Source of the DNA: Anaerolineae bacterium
GTDB taxonomy: Bacteria; Chloroflexota; Anaerolineae; Aggregatilineales; Phototrophicaceae
Direction: 5' to 3'
Assembly (NCBI GenBank): GCA_013360465.1
Contig: JABWBO010000026.1
Location: 1-64,000, forward strand
DNA: 64,000 nt
Positions 14,283-64,000 of the stretch are shown piece by piece. The translations under genes and the position numbers were made by a program. Numbering within the stretch: the stretch's first letter is position 1; each line of letters starts with the position of its first letter. The notes beneath the pieces are model-generated. The model was not told the origin of the DNA and made no database searches. It saw only the letters and a list, made by a program, of their open reading frames with translations.

Positions 14283-14344
14283 GGGGCGAGTCGCCGGCTC
14301 GCCCCTACAAGGTATTGCGTGCAGGGGCGACCTGCGGCTCGCCC
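14283..14344. repeat. Pair of REP-like palindromes (GGGGCGAG family)
   Basis: Two palindromes lie in tandem: GGGGCGAG/CTCGCCCC (14283-14290 with 14298-14305) and GGGCGA/TCGCCC (14325-14330 with 14339-14344). The CCCCTAC edge and (C/A)GGGGCGA core recur at 19.5, 20.7 and 51.4 kb. The rest of the 14127-14367 gap shows nothing else clear. Confidence 0.75.
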
Positions 14345-23237: not shown

Positions 23238-23327
23238 GTGACTCAGCGCTTTCCAGGCGCTGTCTGCACCTCACCCTGTTTCCCTCTCCCTAAGGGCGAG
23301 GGACTTCACCCCTTCGGACTGAGAGCG

Positions 23328-23445
23328 TGTCTGCAAAGCCGGTTTTCACACAACCTCACCCCGGAAACCTGACGGTTTCCTGCCCCTCTCCAATTGGAGA
23401 GGGGCGGTTGAGCGCAAACGGGGTGAGGTGAGCAGTTTGCAGACA
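23328..23445. repeat. MITE-like nested palindrome, copy 1 (TGTCTGCAAA ends)
   Basis: A 118-bp element bounded by TGTCTGCAAA (23328-23337) and its exact inverse TTTGCAGACA (23436-23445). Inside are CCTCACCCC/GGGGTGAGG (23354-23362, 23420-23428) and a perfect 22-bp palindrome centred on CCAATTGG (23383-23404). A second copy with the same ends and order is at 58393-58507. No coding capacity. It separates the binding-protein gene from the ATPase gene of one transporter. Confidence 0.85.
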
Positions 23446-23508
23446 GCCTCTGAGCGAAGGGGACGGGGGATGAGGGCTGCAATCGAATCCTAGCACGGCG
23501 GACCCATC

Positions 23509-51421: not shown

Positions 51422-51478
51422 GGGGCGAACCCACGTGTTCGCCCGTGAACGGCGGGCGGAGACACAGCTCCGCCCCTA
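51422..51478. repeat. Double REP palindrome at the end of a TIR remnant
   Basis: GGGCGAAC/GTTCGCCC (51423-51430, 51437-51444) and GGGCGGAG/CTCCGCCC (51454-51461, 51468-51475) lie in tandem. The following CTAC edge provides the stop codon of the truncated TIR gene on the minus strand. Confidence 0.75.
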
Positions 51479-51706
51479 CTGCTCATCGGCAGTATCGAGA
51501 AACTGAGGAATATCCTCCTCGAATTCCGCCCCAATACTCACATCGGCTTCATCCAGAAACGGCTCTCCGTCCCTGTCGGCGATCTCTTTGGCGATCTGCC
51601 TGGCGACCCAGGTGTCTTCGCCGGAATGACTGATGAAAACCCTGCGCTTTTGAGCTGCTTCGCTCATAAACCTGCTCACAATCTCCTGGCGTGCTAGCTC
51701 AGTCAT
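51476..51706 (-). pseudogene. Truncated TIR-domain gene
   Basis: A 76-codon open frame containing the first half of a TIR domain: RRVFISHSGEDTWVARQIAKEIADRDGEPFLDE, then ADVSIGAEFEEDIPQFLDTADE and a stop. The usual next strand (such as VVLLTP) and the rest of the fold are missing. The stop is made by the edge of a REP palindrome at 51422-51478, so a repeat-linked deletion or insertion is the likely cause. Unlike the two other TIRs here, it keeps a Glu in the AEFEED position of the NADase site. Starts at 51706 or 51667 are possible. Confidence 0.75.
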
Positions 51707-56213: not shown

Positions 56214-57197
56214 ATGAAGGTGGTAGACTTGCCCCCCATCACCATCCTCACCCCTTCGTACAACCAGGCGCAGTACATTCGCGCCACCATTGAGTCGGTC
56301 CTCAGCCAGGACTACGCCGACTTCGAGTACCTGGTGATCGACGGCGGATCGACCGACGACACGACGGACATCCTCAAATCCTACAGCGACCCGCGTATGA
56401 CCTGGGTATCGGAGCGCGACAAGGGGCAGGCGGATGCGCTCAACAAGGGGCTGCGCCTGACCAGCGGGGCGATCCTCACCTGGATCAACTCGGATGACAC
56501 ACTTCTGCCCGGCGCAGTACGTTTCATGGTGGATTATTTCCAGCAGCACCCCCAGGTCGATATGCTGTACGGCGATGCCAACCTGATCGACAGCGCCGGC
56601 GCGTCACTGGGGCTGTCGGCGAGCGACGTGCTGACGCGCGAGGTGGCTGTGACCGGCGACTTCACGCTCATGCAGCAGGGGAGCGCCTGGCGGCGTCGCG
56701 CCTCTGAAACCCTAGGCGAGTTCCGCGACGATCTGCACTACGTCTTCGATGCCGAATACTGGGTGCGGATGCTGCTGGCGGGGCTTCGCGTGGAGTACGT
56801 CCCGGGGGTGCGCGCCGAGTTCAGAATGCACGACGCCAGCAAGACAATCAGCCAGCGCCGCCGCTTTGTAGACGACTGGCGGCAGGTGATCGACCGGCTC
56901 TATGCCGATCCCACGCTGCCGGACTCTTTGCGCCGGCTGCGTCCTACCGCCCAGGAATTCCTCGACTGGCAGTATGCCAAGATCGACTATGCCGCGCGCG
57001 ATTACGCGGCGGCGCGCCCCGCGCTTCAACGGGTCCTGCGCGCCGGGCGTTCAACGCGCCGCGTCATGGCGGCGGTCATGCTGACCGATGTTTATCTGGG
57101 TACGTCATTCGCCCCCTTTGCGGCGGCGGCGTTTCGCCGGCTGACCGGACGGAATATCGAGGCAATTACCCCAACACTTCCCGGTACAGGCGGCTGA
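56214..57197 (+). CDS. Family 2 glycosyltransferase
   Basis: A 327-residue GT-A enzyme: ITILTPSYNQAQYIRATIESVLSQDYADFEYLVIDGGSTDDT, then ILTWINSDDTLLPGA with the metal-binding DxD-like NSDD. The aspartate region FDAEYWVRML precedes the C-terminal helices, which lack membrane segments. It probably adds a sugar to a surface polysaccharide or glycan. Its last 32 bases overlap the end of the convergent family 4 glycosyltransferase. Confidence 0.9.
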   Translation: MKVVDLPPITILTPSYNQAQYIRATIESVLSQDYADFEYLVIDGGSTDDTTDILKSYSDPRMTWVSERDKGQADALNKGLRLTSGAILTWINSDDTLLPGAVRFMVDYFQQHPQVDMLYGDANLIDSAGASLGLSASDVLTREVAVTGDFTLMQQGSAWRRRASETLGEFRDDLHYVFDAEYWVRMLLAGLRVEYVPGVRAEFRMHDASKTISQRRRFVDDWRQVIDRLYADPTLPDSLRRLRPTAQEFLDWQYAKIDYAARDYAAARPALQRVLRAGRSTRRVMAAVMLTDVYLGTSFAPFAAAAFRRLTGRNIEAITPTLPGTGG

Positions 57198-58338
57198 GCG
57201 CTTCCAGCGCCACCTCGGCGTGGAGTTCCTGCCCGGCGCGGCGCGCCGCCGCCCGCAGCGCCATCACCTGTTCGACGCTCAGGGCGTTCACCGTCGCCGC
57301 CAGATCAGCGGCGGAGAAGGACCGAGCGGCGATCCCGTAGCTGTAGCGGGTGACCATCTGCTCGTGCGCCGTGCCTGGTCCGACGATCACCCCCAAGCCG
57401 GCGACCGCCGCCTCGAACAGCTTGTTGGGCAGGGTGTAGCGGTTGGTGTAGGTGGTCGGCGCGGACCAGCTCAGTTCCAGATCGCAGTCGGCGATAGCCT
57501 GCACCACCTGATGAATGCTCACCGGCGGGCGGAAGATCACCCGCTCCGGCGCGTTCTCCTGAGCGTAGGCTTTCAGCCCGTCGATGGTCGCCGCTTCGCC
57601 CACCACCAGGAAGTGCAGCTCGAAGCGCGGCTGACAGAGGGCGATGGCGTCGATCAGCACCTCCAGATGGCGGTTGCGGATTGCCGCGCCGTGAAAGATC
57701 AGTCGGATGCGCTGAGGATCGACCGGATGGTCCGGCGTCTCGACGTAATCCGGCGCGTTGTAGACGACGCCCCCGCCCAGCCCGTACTCCGCCGCATAGC
57801 GTTCCGCCAGCGGCTCAGAGACGTGCGTGCTGGCATCGACACCGGCGGCGTAACGGCTCAGAAAGTGGTGTATCATCGGGGCGAAGAACCAGCGCCATGC
57901 CCGGCTGCTCTCCCGCTCGGTGGTCCAGTGTTCGTCGGCGTCGAAGAAGACCTTCGCTGTCCCCCCGGTCTGCCGAGCAGCCCGCACCGCCAGCGGGATC
58001 GCCGCCCAATCGCTGGCGTGGTAGGCGTCGGCGCGACAGGCGATGGCGAGGCGGAGCGCCTGGACGTAGCGGGGTCGCCGCCAGAAGTAGAGATCGTAGG
58101 CGGCAGGGATCAGCCGACCCAGCGCCAGCAGGATCAGTTCGACGGCGAGGCGGAGGCGGCTGCGCGAACGGTTGATGCCGTGCCAGGCGATCCCCTTTGC
58201 CGCCCACGACGCCGGTGGGTCGCCGAAGCCGATGACGCGGACGGCGTAGTCGCGCGACAGCCGCTCGATCTGCCGGAAGGACCGGGGATCGGTTTCGATG
58301 GGCAGCGCCAGCGTGATGACGCAGACGGTTTTTGGCAT
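57166..58338 (-). CDS. Family 4-type glycosyltransferase
   Basis: A 390-residue GT-B enzyme. The N-terminal half has DVYHASDW-like ADAYHASDWAAIPLAVRAAR and a hydrophobic LAVELILLALGRLIPAAYDLYFW. The C-terminal half has RIRLIFHGAAIRNRHLEVLIDAI, LHFLVVGEA and the donor-site YTNRYTLPNKLFEAAVAGLGVIVGPGTAH, the 'E-x7-E'-like region. ATG 58338 gives the normal MPKTVCVITLALPIETDPRSF start. It is tail-to-tail with the GT2 gene, sharing 32 coding bases. Confidence 0.88.
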   Translation of the reverse strand: MPKTVCVITLALPIETDPRSFRQIERLSRDYAVRVIGFGDPPASWAAKGIAWHGINRSRSRLRLAVELILLALGRLIPAAYDLYFWRRPRYVQALRLAIACRADAYHASDWAAIPLAVRAARQTGGTAKVFFDADEHWTTERESSRAWRWFFAPMIHHFLSRYAAGVDASTHVSEPLAERYAAEYGLGGGVVYNAPDYVETPDHPVDPQRIRLIFHGAAIRNRHLEVLIDAIALCQPRFELHFLVVGEAATIDGLKAYAQENAPERVIFRPPVSIHQVVQAIADCDLELSWSAPTTYTNRYTLPNKLFEAAVAGLGVIVGPGTAHEQMVTRYSYGIAARSFSAADLAATVNALSVEQVMALRAAARRAGQELHAEVALEALSRLYREVLG

Positions 58339-58392
58339 GTGCAGAACATCCCCTATGGGTAGAGGCGGTGCGCGCACCGCCCGACGAGGGTC

Positions 58393-58507
58393 TGTCTGCA
58401 AACGCGCTGTTTGTCGCTGTCCTCACCCCTGCTGCGCTTCGTTTAGCGCCCCCTCTCAATACAATGGAGAGGGGACTGAGGGGTGAGGTTTAGTGGGTTT
58501 GCAGACA
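58393..58507. repeat. MITE-like nested palindrome, copy 2 (TGTCTGCAAA ends)
   Basis: A 115-bp element: TGTCTGCAAA (58393-58402) and TTTGCAGACA (58498-58507) at the ends, CCTCACCCC (58421-58429) and GGGGTGAGG (58480-58488) inside, and CCCCTCTC/GGAGAGGGG around the centre. Same order as 23328-23445, with diverged connecting sequence. It fills the gap between the glycosyltransferase and kinase genes. Confidence 0.85.
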
Positions 58508-58579
58508 CACTTTAACAGCAGTATTGAGAGTCCTGTGGCATAATTGCCGTTATCTGGCAAAGAGTGTGACACATCGCTC

Positions 58580-60670
58580 ATGGTCGCCACATTTTACTTC
58601 ATCGTGGTCTGCGCCGCCGCCGCCATCCTCATCACGCTCAGCTTCGTGGGGTGGACCCGCCGCAGCGTCCCTGCCGGCATGCCCTTCTTCCTGCTGATGG
58701 CGTCGAGCGCCTTCTACCTGCTGTGCAACGTCGGTTTCATGGTAAGCGCCGACCGCGAAACGGCTTACGTCTTTGCCCGCCTGCAAACCCTGGGCACCAA
58801 TCTGGCGTGCGTGGTTCTGCTCGTGTTCTGCGTGGCATATTCGGGACGCCCGGAGCGCCTGCCTCGTCTCAGCCTGGCTTTCTGGTACGCGCTGGCGGTG
58901 GGTACGTTCCTGGTAGTCTGGACCGACCCCTATCATCACTGGTATTTTCGCACCTTCGAAATCACCCAGGTGGGCGGCTTGACCTTCCGCGCCGGGACGT
59001 ATGGCTGGTGGCTGCCGGTCCTGATCGTCGTTCAGTTCATCCCACCCCTGTACGGCGTCGCTGTTTTGATCGCCGAGTACCGCGCGGCGCAGGGGGTGAT
59101 TCGCCGGCAGTACAGATGGCTGATCTTCACTGCCTGCCTGCCGCCCGGCATCTCGGCGCTAATCGCCGTGCTGCGCATGGTCGGCGTCGAGTCGCTCAGC
59201 AGCATCACGCCGCTGCCCCTGGCGTTCGGCGCAGTTGGCTTGAGTACCGTGCGCGTCATCCTGCGCGATCAGCTCCTCGACCTGACGCCCATCGCCCAGG
59301 TGCTGATCTTCGATGAGATCCCGGAAGCCATCATCATCACCGACCTACAGGGGCGCATCACCCAGCTCAACCCCGTCGCCCGCCGGCTGCGTGGGCTGAA
59401 ACCGGGCGAAGGGATCGGCAGGCTTTCGCGCGATCTGTTCGTCGAGTTGGATGGCGTTGACCAGGGGAGCATCATCACCGTCAGGCTGCCGGACGAGGCG
59501 CGTCCGCGCTCCTACGAATGCCGCTTTCGCGATCTGAAGCGGAAAGAGATGCCGGTCGGTCGGCTGACCATCCTCTACGATGTGACCGAGCGCCAGCGCG
59601 CCGAAGAAGCCTATCGCAGCGTCGTGGACCGGTCTTTGCAGGGGTTCGCCATCTTCCAGGAAGGGCGGGCGGTCTTTGCCAACCGCATGTTTGGCGATTT
59701 GTTCGGATATGAGCCGGCAGAGGTGCTGAATTTCAGCGCGGAACAGCTGGTGCGCGGTGTCCACCCCGACGACCTGCCCAGGGTACTCGACGGGCAGCGC
59801 CGGCTGCTCACCGGCGAGATCGATTCCGTGCGCAGCGAGTTTCGCATCATGCGCCGCGCCTTGGAGCCGGTGTGGGTAGAGATTCAGGCGGCGCGCACCG
59901 ATTATCGCGGCGCGCCTGCTGTGCAGATCGCCCTGGTGGATATCACCGAACAGAAGAAGGTGCGTCAGCGCGACTTGGAAGCGCAGCTGGAACGCGAACG
60001 GGCGGAGCTGGTCTCCGGCTTTGTCGCCAGCGCGGCGCACGAGCTGCGCACCCCGCTGTCGATCATCAACACGCAGGCGTATTTGCTGGCAGCGCATGCC
60101 GATGAAGCAGCGCGTAAGCAGCGCGCCGCCCTGATCGAGTCGCAGGTGTTCCGCACCTCCAAACTGGTCGATATGATGCTCAAGATGGTGCGCCTGCAGC
60201 GCGCCTCGCCGACCCTGGTAGCGCTCGCCCCCGAGGCACTGGTGAAGGAAGTATGCAGCGCTTTGCTGCAAGGCGGGCTAATGCCGACGCTGCGCTGTGA
60301 GATCATCGAACCCCTGCCGCACATCCTAGGGGACAGCGATCTGCTGCAAGAGGCGCTGACAGCGCTGATCGACAACGCCCGGCGTTATGGACCGCCGGAC
60401 GGCAGCATCGTCGTCCGGCTGTGCATGGCGGGCGAGAGCGTATGCATCGCCGTCCATGATGAGGGACCGGGCATCGCAGCGGATCAGATGGACAAAATCT
60501 TCGAGACCTTCTGGCGCGGCGACTCCGCCCATTCCACGCCGGGCATGGGCTTAGGACTGCCGATAGCGCGGCGCATCGTCGAGCTGCACAAGGGCAGCAT
60601 CCGCGTGGAAAGCGCGCCAGAGAAGGGGAGCATCTTCCGCATCCACCTGCCGGTACATGTCGAGACTTAG
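58580..60670 (+). CDS. Membrane-bound PAS sensor histidine kinase
   Basis: A 696-residue kinase. The first 215 residues form about seven helices (FYFIVVCAAAAILITLSFVGW onward), matching the histidine-kinase 7TM sensor module. Two PAS-like domains follow (about 235-350, ending YDVTERQRAEE, and 360-470, ending VDITEQKK). The phospho-acceptor is His487 in SAAHELRTPLSI. The ATPase has an N-box LIDNARRYGP, a G1-box DEGPGI and a G2-box GMGLGLPIARRIV. ATG 58580 is preferred to an upstream TTG. No response regulator is next to it. Confidence 0.92.
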   Translation: MVATFYFIVVCAAAAILITLSFVGWTRRSVPAGMPFFLLMASSAFYLLCNVGFMVSADRETAYVFARLQTLGTNLACVVLLVFCVAYSGRPERLPRLSLAFWYALAVGTFLVVWTDPYHHWYFRTFEITQVGGLTFRAGTYGWWLPVLIVVQFIPPLYGVAVLIAEYRAAQGVIRRQYRWLIFTACLPPGISALIAVLRMVGVESLSSITPLPLAFGAVGLSTVRVILRDQLLDLTPIAQVLIFDEIPEAIIITDLQGRITQLNPVARRLRGLKPGEGIGRLSRDLFVELDGVDQGSIITVRLPDEARPRSYECRFRDLKRKEMPVGRLTILYDVTERQRAEEAYRSVVDRSLQGFAIFQEGRAVFANRMFGDLFGYEPAEVLNFSAEQLVRGVHPDDLPRVLDGQRRLLTGEIDSVRSEFRIMRRALEPVWVEIQAARTDYRGAPAVQIALVDITEQKKVRQRDLEAQLERERAELVSGFVASAAHELRTPLSIINTQAYLLAAHADEAARKQRAALIESQVFRTSKLVDMMLKMVRLQRASPTLVALAPEALVKEVCSALLQGGLMPTLRCEIIEPLPHILGDSDLLQEALTALIDNARRYGPPDGSIVVRLCMAGESVCIAVHDEGPGIAADQMDKIFETFWRGDSAHSTPGMGLGLPIARRIVELHKGSIRVESAPEKGSIFRIHLPVHVET

Positions 60671-60876: not shown

Positions 60877-63800
60877 ATGGCAGTCACGCCCGAAGAACGC
60901 CGCGCCCGTGAAAGCCTGGCGCGCCTGATCGACGATTACGACAAGCTGACCGGCGACCAGCGCGCCGACATGACCGAAGCCAGCGTCGTGCGCCAGTTCA
61001 TCGACCGGCTGATGGGCGACGCGCTGGGCTGGCCCATCAAGGACCCGCAGCGCTACAAATACGAGCTGCATACCGGAGCCGGATGCCCGGACATCACGCT
61101 GATCCCAGAGGCGGGCGGGCGCATCTATGTCGAGACGAAGCGCTTCGGCATGATCAAACGGCTGGAACGCATCGCGGCGGGCACGGCGGACCGTCTTTCC
61201 GACACCGTGAAGCCGGCGCAGCTCGCCCTGCCCGGCATGGCGGTGGACCGCACCCCGGAAGAGCAGCAGGCGATCAACTACGCCTTCGGCAACGACGCGA
61301 CCTGGGCGATTCTGACCAATTTCGAGGTCCTCCGGCTGTTCAACGCCCGGCGCGACTGGCTGGTGCTGTCCTTCGAGACGCCCTTCGCTTATCGCCACGA
61401 TTTCGACCTGTTATGGCAGCTCGCCTACAGCAATCTGATCAAGGGCAGCCTGGACGCGCTGAGCAACCAGCGCCGCACCGAAGAGGTGGACCGCGACTAC
61501 CTGGGCTTCATCAACGACTGGCGCGAACGGCTGGCGCGCGACCTGCTGAGCCGCCTCGGTCAGAACCGCTGGCTGGCGCGCGACGACGGCGCGACCGACC
61601 TGACGGCGCTGCGGGCGGTGGTGCAGCGCACCCTGGACCGGCTGGTGGTCGCCCGCTTCGCCGAAGACCATCTGGTTGTGCCGCCCGGCACGCTGCGCAC
61701 CTTTTACGAAGTGCGCAAGAGCAACCCTTACTCGCATTCCATGCAGCAGTTCCTCGACAACTTCTTCCGTCGCTTCGACGAACAGCACAATTCGGCGTTG
61801 TTCGCGCCGGGGCTGGCGGACCAGGCGTCGTTCAGCGACGAGGCGCTGCTGCCGCTGATCGACAAGCTCTACGAAGCCCGCTTCCGCGCCATGCCCGCCG
61901 ACATCCTGGGCAACACCTACGAGCAGTATCTCGGCAAGACCCTGGCGTTCGATTCGTCGGGCAGCATCGTCAGCCGCGACAACCTGGAGACGCGCAAGAA
62001 GCAGGGCAGCTACTACACGCCGCAGGTCATCGTCCGCTACATCGTCGATAACAGCCTGGGGCGCTGGCTTTACGGCACGCGCGACGGCAAGCCGGACGGC
62101 GAACCCGTCGAAGGCGAGCTGCGCCGCATCAGCGCCGACCTCGCCGATCTGCGCGTGCTGGACAGCGCCTGCGGCAGCGGCTCGTTCCTGATCTACGCCT
62201 ATGAGGTGCTGGCGCGCTTCTACGAGAGCGAGATCGCCCGGTTGGAGGCGATCATCATCGCCGGCACGGAGGCGCTTTCGCAGCAGAACCCGGAAGCGCC
62301 GGGCTACGTCGAGACGCGCATCGCTCTCGTTCAGGCGCAGACCGAGCTGGCGCGCATCCGCGACCACTACCCGCGCCTGATCCTGGAAAGCCACCTCTAC
62401 GGCGTCGATCTCGACCCGCAGGCGGCGGAGATCGCCGTCGTCAACCTGATGATGCGGGCGATGGAGCGGCGCGGGCGGGAAAAGCGCCCGCCGCTGATCC
62501 TGAACCAGAACGTCAAGGTGGGCAATGCGCTGGTGGGGATGCGCCCCGACGACCCGCGCCTGGCGCAGCACGCCGACGCCCTGCGCCAGATCGCCGATCT
62601 GCGCGCCCGGCTGGTGCGCACCCCGCATGGCGCGGAGCATGACCGCATCCTGAGCGACCTGGACGCCGCTTCAGCGGCGCTGCGGGCGGCGCTGGACGAG
62701 CCGTTCAAGGCGCATTTCAGCGACCTGGAGCGGGTGCGCCCCTTCCACTGGGCGGCGGAATTCCCGGAGGTGTTCACCGACTTCACGACCCCCTCACCCC
62801 CTGACCCCCTCTCCCACGCAGTCAGGGAGAGGGGGGATGCGGCGTCCGCCCCTTTCCCCCTGACCACAGGCGAGCTTGCTCGCACTCCCACGCAAGCGGG
62901 GCGAGGGGAGAGGGGGGTGAGGTCTTCCGGATTCACCATCATTGTCGGCAACCCGCCCTGGGAGATCGTCAAGCCCGACCTGCGCGAGTTCTATGCCCAG
63001 TTCGATCCGAAGATCGAGAGCCACTACACGCGGGCGCAGGCGGAGGCGCGGATCGCCGAGCTTCAGGCGGAAGACCCGGCGCGCCTGGCACTTTACACGG
63101 CGGGCGTGAAGGTCATCGAAGAGACGGCGGCATACGTGCGGCGGACGGACGATTACACCCGCCAGGGCAGGGGGGACACCGCCACCCACAAGCTCTTTCT
63201 GGAGCGGACGTACCGGCTGCTGCGCGGCGGCGGGCGGATCGGCTATCTCGTGCCGTCGGGCATCTACACCGACCTGGGCACGAAGGACCTGCGCGAGATG
63301 CTGCTGGACGAGGGCAGCATCGAATCCCTGATAGGGATAACTAACGGCGTTTCAGGCGGCGCAGCGTACTTTGCCGAGATTCACCGCTCATTCAAAATTG
63401 CGCTGTTGATAGCTCGGCATGGCGCAAGCTCGGACAGCTTTCCCGCCATGTTCAAGATTGATCCACGAGATGCTCCTCACCCGGATAACTTCCTGACAGC
63501 GGTAAACGAGCTATCCAATTGGATTGTTATGCGCCGCGAGACGATAGAACGCTTCAGCCCTGAAAGCCTGAGCCTGATGGAGTTCAAGTCGCGCCGCGAT
63601 TACGAGATCGCCGAGAAGATCTATGATAGGCACCCGCTGTTGGGCGAAGGGCGGGGCGCGGAGGGTAATGGAAGTGCGCTTCCCTGGACGGTCAGCCTGA
63701 CGCGCGAATTCGATATGACCAATGATCGGGACTTGTTCAATCAGCGGAGCGAAGGGCTGCCGCTGTATGAAGGCAAGATGATTCATCAGTTCGACGCTTT

Positions 63801-64000
63801 CTATAAGCCGCCGCAGTATTGGATTAGCGAGGACAAACAGAACAGAGATGCAGCACCCACTGCTGCCCCTGTACTTAGACACGCACGGCTGGTATTCAGG
63901 GACATTGCGCGAAGTACGGATGAGAGGACTTTGATTGCGGCGGTCATTCCTCCAAATACCTTTGTGGGCAATACCGCGATTGTTGATAACGGGACTTCAG
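60877..64000 (+). CDS. Type IIG restriction-modification enzyme (N6-adenine methylase), partial
   Basis: At least 1041 residues; the frame is still open at the window end. The N-terminal nuclease site is PD (71-72) with E86-x-K88 (CPDITL, YVETK). The methylase has GSYYTPQVIVRYIV, the SAM motif LDSACGSGSFLIYAYEVL (428-445), VDLDPQAAEIAVVNLM and catalytic NPPWE (692-696). Just before NPPW a roughly 48-residue insertion (about 637-684) comes from repeat DNA. After residue ~815 (63330) the coding sequence turns markedly AT-richer, as in exchanged target-recognition domains. ATG 60877 is used; GTG 60850 would add nine residues. No partner methylase or specificity gene is in view upstream. Confidence 0.88.
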   Translation, partial: MAVTPEERRARESLARLIDDYDKLTGDQRADMTEASVVRQFIDRLMGDALGWPIKDPQRYKYELHTGAGCPDITLIPEAGGRIYVETKRFGMIKRLERIAAGTADRLSDTVKPAQLALPGMAVDRTPEEQQAINYAFGNDATWAILTNFEVLRLFNARRDWLVLSFETPFAYRHDFDLLWQLAYSNLIKGSLDALSNQRRTEEVDRDYLGFINDWRERLARDLLSRLGQNRWLARDDGATDLTALRAVVQRTLDRLVVARFAEDHLVVPPGTLRTFYEVRKSNPYSHSMQQFLDNFFRRFDEQHNSALFAPGLADQASFSDEALLPLIDKLYEARFRAMPADILGNTYEQYLGKTLAFDSSGSIVSRDNLETRKKQGSYYTPQVIVRYIVDNSLGRWLYGTRDGKPDGEPVEGELRRISADLADLRVLDSACGSGSFLIYAYEVLARFYESEIARLEAIIIAGTEALSQQNPEAPGYVETRIALVQAQTELARIRDHYPRLILESHLYGVDLDPQAAEIAVVNLMMRAMERRGREKRPPLILNQNVKVGNALVGMRPDDPRLAQHADALRQIADLRARLVRTPHGAEHDRILSDLDAASAALRAALDEPFKAHFSDLERVRPFHWAAEFPEVFTDFTTPSPPDPLSHAVRERGDAASAPFPLTTGELARTPTQAGRGERGVRSSGFTIIVGNPPWEIVKPDLREFYAQFDPKIESHYTRAQAEARIAELQAEDPARLALYTAGVKVIEETAAYVRRTDDYTRQGRGDTATHKLFLERTYRLLRGGGRIGYLVPSGIYTDLGTKDLREMLLDEGSIESLIGITNGVSGGAAYFAEIHRSFKIALLIARHGASSDSFPAMFKIDPRDAPHPDNFLTAVNELSNWIVMRRETIERFSPESLSLMEFKSRRDYEIAEKIYDRHPLLGEGRGAEGNGSALPWTVSLTREFDMTNDRDLFNQRSEGLPLYEGKMIHQFDAFYKPPQYWISEDKQNRDAAPTAAPVLRHARLVFRDIARSTDERTLIAAVIPPNTFVGNTAIVDNGTS
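62789..62922. repeat. Palindromic repeat inserted in frame in the type IIG gene
   Basis: CCTCACCCCC (62792-62801) and GGGGGTGAGG (62913-62922) face each other, enclosing a perfect 11-bp stem CCCCCTCTCCC/GGGAGAGGGGG (62805-62815, 62825-62835). The CTCACCCC and CCCCTCTC/GAGAGGGG blocks resemble those inside the TGTCTGCAAA elements. It translates through without a stop. Confidence 0.8.

Follow-up and report, generated by a model that had tools for sequence, protein, structure and literature searches.

A composite palindromic insert translated in frame within a type IIG-like methylase gene of an Anaerolineae bacterium, and the REP-like repeat family to which it belongs

The window analysed here is the whole stretch of 64,000 nucleotides, and it contains a gene for a type IIG-like restriction enzyme–methyltransferase (60877–64000, plus strand), assigned from Pfam, PADLOC and the end of the open reading frame. 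The frame (60877–63999, plus strand) runs past the window to its own stop codon and encodes 1184 amino acids. The protein matches Eco57I (4.5e-15) and N6_Mtase (1e-08) in Pfam and REase_MTase_IIG (1.2e-42) in PADLOC, and the motifs PD...ETK, DSACGSGSF and NPPW were located by eye. Judged from its sequence, the protein would combine a fused nuclease-like N-terminus, the motifs of an N6-adenine methyltransferase and a C-terminal recognition region, as in type IIG restriction–modification enzymes. The catalytic motif IV, NPPW (62950–62961, plus strand), is intact, invariant in the alignment and located seven codons downstream of the insert described below. The nearest relatives of the gene are in Anaerolineae (Chloroflexota). 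One homologue, in CAMDQF010000026.1 (L166), has, elsewhere in its sequence, an additional short segment rich in Gly, LLAEGGQGTGDRGLGTGNGGRLG, which is possibly another translated repeat.

Between FPEVF and GFTIIVGNPPW the alignments delimit an inserted or replaced segment of 153 nt (51 codons; 62776–62928, plus strand), which is in frame and contains no stop codon. An earlier note on this DNA had placed about 48 residues at 62789–62922, in frame and free of stops; its coordinates and estimate were right, and the frame of 60877–63999 is open through the segment. Where homologues showed the two motifs, the spacing from an FPExF-type motif to GNPP(W/Y) is 10–18 residues in 33 of 34, compared with 57 residues here and 85 in the sister species. 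Alignment, which the note had proposed as a check, thus returned homologues that do not contain the residues; their corresponding segment is mostly 11–12 codons long (51 here) and forms a short, hydrophilic loop, e.g. VDEQGQPLDNP. On sequence comparison, a few codons of this loop seem to have been replaced besides being displaced. An AlphaFold model of the methylase calculated with 22 sequences was of too low quality to position the loop (mean pLDDT 59.5, pTM 0.38), with values below 50 in the insert. The insert-bearing loop is probably a tolerated, disordered surface loop, its surface position being supported only indirectly.

The insert is built of GC-rich palindromic units. Its outermost perfect arms, CCTCACCCC (62792–62800) and GGGGTGAGG (62914–62922), are the termini of a composite palindrome identified by arm search at 62792–62922, and inverted arms of 24 nt within the insert are 79% complementary at a spacing of 83 nt. 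The insert strand folds with −88.1 kcal/mol, compared with −71.2 ± 4.5 kcal/mol for dinucleotide shuffles (z = −3.8, 0/200). On the left lies a REP-like unit (62792–62836, plus strand) with arm CTCACCCCCTGACCCCCTCTCCC, consisting of the tail CCTCACCCCCTGA and the hairpin CCCCCTCTCCC/GGGAGAGGGGGG. It is followed by a core of 63 nt (62849–62911) that is common to the insert of the sister species, and which encloses a small nested palindrome, GCGAGCTTGCTCGC (62870–62883), similar to a unit elsewhere in the genome (L003). The right inverted arm (62899–62922, minus strand; arm search) ends in GGGGTGAGG. Where the earlier note saw one nested palindrome, the insert is rather a composite in which two or more REP-like units are joined, and the sister species has remodelled it differently. 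A 25-mer from the left arm occurs once in the window (chance expectation 0); as a search pattern it was too strict, its one match being itself. The Rfam search gave only two matches, far below the gathering score, and a plasmid search for the repeat gave no match.

The host genome (G000; an Anaerolineae MAG, judged from its relatives, of 5.93 Mb in 256 contigs) was surveyed by pattern searches and with a 0.98-Mb sample of stretches. It contains 130 perfect CCCTCTCC-N4-34-GGAGAGGG palindromes, mostly intergenic, against 0 for the reversed control. Many of the genome copies have the same CCTCACCCC and GGGGTGAGG ends and different interiors. Of the genomes examined from the same genus, one lacks the palindrome and the others have 5–169 copies; counts by genome are 0–169 in the genus and reach 692 in the order, compared with 0–8 in controls. 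The exact left arm of the methylase insert, CTCACCCCCTGACCCCCTCTCCC, occurs once in the host genome; in species G004 no other form is as common. From its sequence, the main-family unit looks REP-like, with a tail followed by a hairpin and often in inverted pairs. Copies with the same terminal arms occur twice more in the window: one (58421–58488) is intergenic, between the reading frames 57166–58401 (minus strand) and 58544–60670 (plus strand), and the other, found by arm search outside the host gene (23354–23428), lies inside a MITE-like unit. In this unit (window 23300–23480; also L052–L066), terminal repeats of the AGAGACTGTTTGCAAA type enclose the CCTCACCCC palindrome. Part of the copies are embedded in such longer units with AGAGACTGTTTGCAAA-type ends, and some contigs terminate in the unit. 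The check proposed in the earlier note, a search of the genome for the same repeat, thus recovered many further copies, both between genes and in other reading frames.

A second palindrome family of the genome, the GTAG-tagged REPs, is represented in the window at 14284–14308 and 51454–51479 (both minus strand; pattern search), with 71 matches in the host genome, 232 in the sister species G006 and 2–3 in the control. In related genomes these REPs are often paired in inverted orientation, with about 50 bp between the partners. The main family ends in CCTCACCCC and GGGGTGAGG, and neither of the tetranucleotides GTAG and CGTC stands at the base of its palindrome. Neither of the two Y1_Tnp (TnpA) genes of the host genome is flanked by the repeats; a RAYT is possibly absent from the assembly or acting from elsewhere.

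The methylase gene of the sister species G006 (JAEURA010000105.1) is about 98% identical at the nucleotide level to the left of the insert and carries an in-frame insert at the same site. That insert is 237 nt long as opposed to 153 nt (84 nt longer) and is rearranged: the 63-nt core is 96.8% identical and the 24-nt right end 100% identical, and there are other palindromic units, including GTAGGGGCGGTTCGCGAACCGCCC, a GTAG-tagged REP. The lengths of both inserts are multiples of three and both are free of stop codons. Between the two species dN/dS is 0.20 to the left of the insert and 0.33 to the right, so the protein stayed under purifying selection. Purifying selection, together with the intactness of the motifs, speaks for tolerance of the insert by the enzyme; of the two outcomes that the earlier note had left open, a tolerated insertion and a damaged protein, the first is favoured. 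The simplest history is a single ancestral insertion with later independent nested insertion and deletion, and the methylase insert is a composite that keeps changing while its frame is kept. For the 17-residue core common to both species, selection on the core could be an alternative cause. No target-site duplication and no clean nucleotide-level empty site were recovered at the methylase site, since even the closest homologues without the insert reach a protein identity of only about 69%.

To the right of the insert the two species differ more. The first 60 codons diverge by 10.6%, compared with 2.1% to the left (p = 5.5e-7 by Fisher's test, without correction and for a comparison picked post hoc), and the recognition region (residues ~815–1100; window 63300–64000) has been exchanged, with 51% amino-acid identity between near-identical flanks and a frame that is still open. 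The insert might be read from this as a recombination joint at which the right-hand part of the methylase, with its target-recognition region, was exchanged as a module. We consider this unlikely: identity returns to 97–98% at codons 741–800, which gives the recognition-region exchange separate breakpoints, and such an exchange requires no palindrome.

Insertion in frame is not confined to the methylase. Some coding copies were overlooked by the codon-usage gene caller, and for one subfamily the copies were therefore examined one by one. Among all 15 CTCACCCC-N0-12-CCCTCTCCC copies of the host genome, nine are intergenic, five are in frame and free of stops within reading frames and one is truncating. 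The in-frame hosts are the methylase, an nSTAND1 protein (L118), a TIR-nSTAND1-FGE protein (L121), an FGE-type protein (L080) and a GT87 protein (L071); in the truncating case, an FGE-type reading frame (L067) ends within the insert region. A non-coding copy has a chance of about 10% that its length is divisible by three and that a given phase contains no stop, so that in the absence of selection one would hardly expect five of six to be in frame (P for at least five of six, 4e-5, with the reading frames called partly by eye). The few coding copies relative to coding density, together with this frame bias, point to selection that removes harmful insertions. Three other loci flagged as same-frame inserts were rejected, one (L138) as intergenic and two (L302 and L288) for the stops that they contain.

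Several loops have been occupied more than once. The nSTAND1 loop between ARLLV and EVAHEA contains four different in-frame inserts in G000, G006, G021 and G019 (L118 14542–14731; L258, L279, L281 and L271) and is eight residues long in G004, G005 and a G000 paralogue. The G006 insert in this loop belongs to a different palindrome family, which the orthologues from G000 and G006 also carry in their FGE loop. That FGE-sulfatase loop, located before RLPTEWEW, varies from 7 to 47 in length and is repeatedly filled by palindromic inserts (L121 6095 and 10452; L118 15346; L080; L067/L139; L316). In an AddA/UvrD-type helicase (L334, L335 and L292), G006 has two near-identical inserts (PHPLTxDTEAPHPLTPSPTRGEGE); at the second of these two sites G000 has a different insert, and the loop there is uninterrupted in twelve other species. 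These same-loop cases were found through the repeat search and therefore show recurrence; they do not measure its rate. Beside the G006 methylase gene, an O-antigen-ligase-like gene (assigned by eye; L323 806–2399, minus strand of G006:C252) contains an insert that consists of repeat units and spans about 75 residues, and a G000 contig stops inside the orthologue of this gene.

Recruitment of the insert, with repeat-derived Pro/Arg/Gly linkers kept for altering expression, partner binding or specificity, would fit its presence in two species with the 17-residue core retained, and families resembling phage defence (type IIG restriction–modification, nSTAND1 with TIR or FGE) recur among the hosts. 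Most of the insert nevertheless differs between sisters whose left flanks are about 98% identical, the GT87, helicase and O-antigen-ligase-like hosts have no common function, and the same loops are filled by unrelated palindrome families; we regard recruitment as quite improbable. Equally improbable is that the insertion damages the enzyme and that the methylase gene is decaying. The insert does lie only seven codons from the catalytic NPPW, and at least one other copy truncates a reading frame (L067), but in both species the frame is open, the motifs are intact and dN/dS is 0.20–0.33, and the recognition region has been exchanged and is still open. A low-complexity expansion or an assembly artefact in place of a mobile repeat is scarcely credible, for although GC-rich hairpins are hard to assemble and some of the 256 contigs end in repeats, an independent assembly (JAEURA010000105.1) has a related in-frame insert at the same codon position, and the same arms recur genome-wide while the reversed control matches none.

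The reading that we hold to be very probable is that dispersed REP-like units were inserted into the loop upstream of motif IV before the host species and its sister split. The mobile unit would be a CCTCACCCC tail with a CCCTCTCC hairpin, often in inverted pairs, and this REP-like element would land in genes as it does elsewhere, in this case by transposition into the loop codons of the methylase. The element may be mobilized in trans by a HUH enzyme of the TnpA-REP type. Selection on the host would spare only those insertions that lie in tolerant loops, in frame and without a stop, and a loop once occupied might then collect further units by nested insertion and deletion. Most likely the insert is no functional part of the protein but a nearly neutral parasite of it. 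More tentatively, and with rather less confidence than doubt, we suggest that particular loops in defence, repair and surface-related proteins are recurrent landing pads in these Anaerolineae. Unrelated families (the CCTCACCCC, GTAG and GTAGGGACGACGCC types) might perhaps invade them independently, continually making in-frame linkers in sister species.

The earlier note had likened the insert to the palindromic elements found inside Rickettsia proteins (RPE), which were reportedly described by Ogata, Claverie and colleagues. RPE palindromes lie between genes and also in frame in unrelated proteins, where they are tolerated, and some genes have been hit twice (PMC3733652). The family described here occurs in the same two settings, so that the comparison stands for how the element works; it does not extend to family membership. 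The host belongs to Chloroflexota and not to Rickettsiales, and the present repeats are GC-rich. The inserts here also differ in being composites of several families that are remodelled between sister species.

GTAG- and CGTC-tagged REPs are small palindromes, often in inverted pairs or clusters, mostly intergenic with some in reading frames; intragenic clusters encode 43–82 amino acids, their DNA-repair hosts include UvrD/RecB types, and one same-site case concerns two Xanthomonas recB genes (PMC3733652). Small palindromes, inverted pairs, a mostly intergenic distribution and a UvrD-type host are found here too, but the main family has the tail CCTCACCCC, and alongside it these genomes contain a separate GTAG family, which is nested in the insert of the sister. 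As in the REPIN and TnpA-REP (RAYT) systems, paired inverted REPs form a unit, whereas the search of the host genome gave no repeat-flanked RAYT gene. Enterobacterial RU elements with open reading frames are likewise small and mobile and have become part, in frame, of annotated proteins; they are longer, MITE-like and of other sequence, and same-loop reuse does not appear in the part of their description considered here (PMC2759123).

A literature search, mostly of papers accessible without subscription, gave no report of the phenomenon in Chloroflexota, only a mention of GTAG-23 in T. roseum. The present family is multi-copy, and homologues of the host protein lack the segment, as is general for in-frame intragenic palindromic repeats; since the family has neither a GTAG/CGTC tag nor linkage to a RAYT, it is placed under this general kind only. 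Since Rickettsia and other bacteria already provide examples of the phenomenon, it is the family that is new here and not the kind. Caution is called for with metagenome proteins, in which a Pro/Arg/Gly-rich stretch, for example LTPDPSPTQAGRGE, can be a translated repeat. Pairs of sister species with different palindromes in the same loop are now in hand, making it testable how often insertions reach proteins before selection acts and whether repeat-made loops ever get used. Protein-coding palindromes, best known from a genus of intracellular pathogens, are hereby extended to uncultured Chloroflexota.
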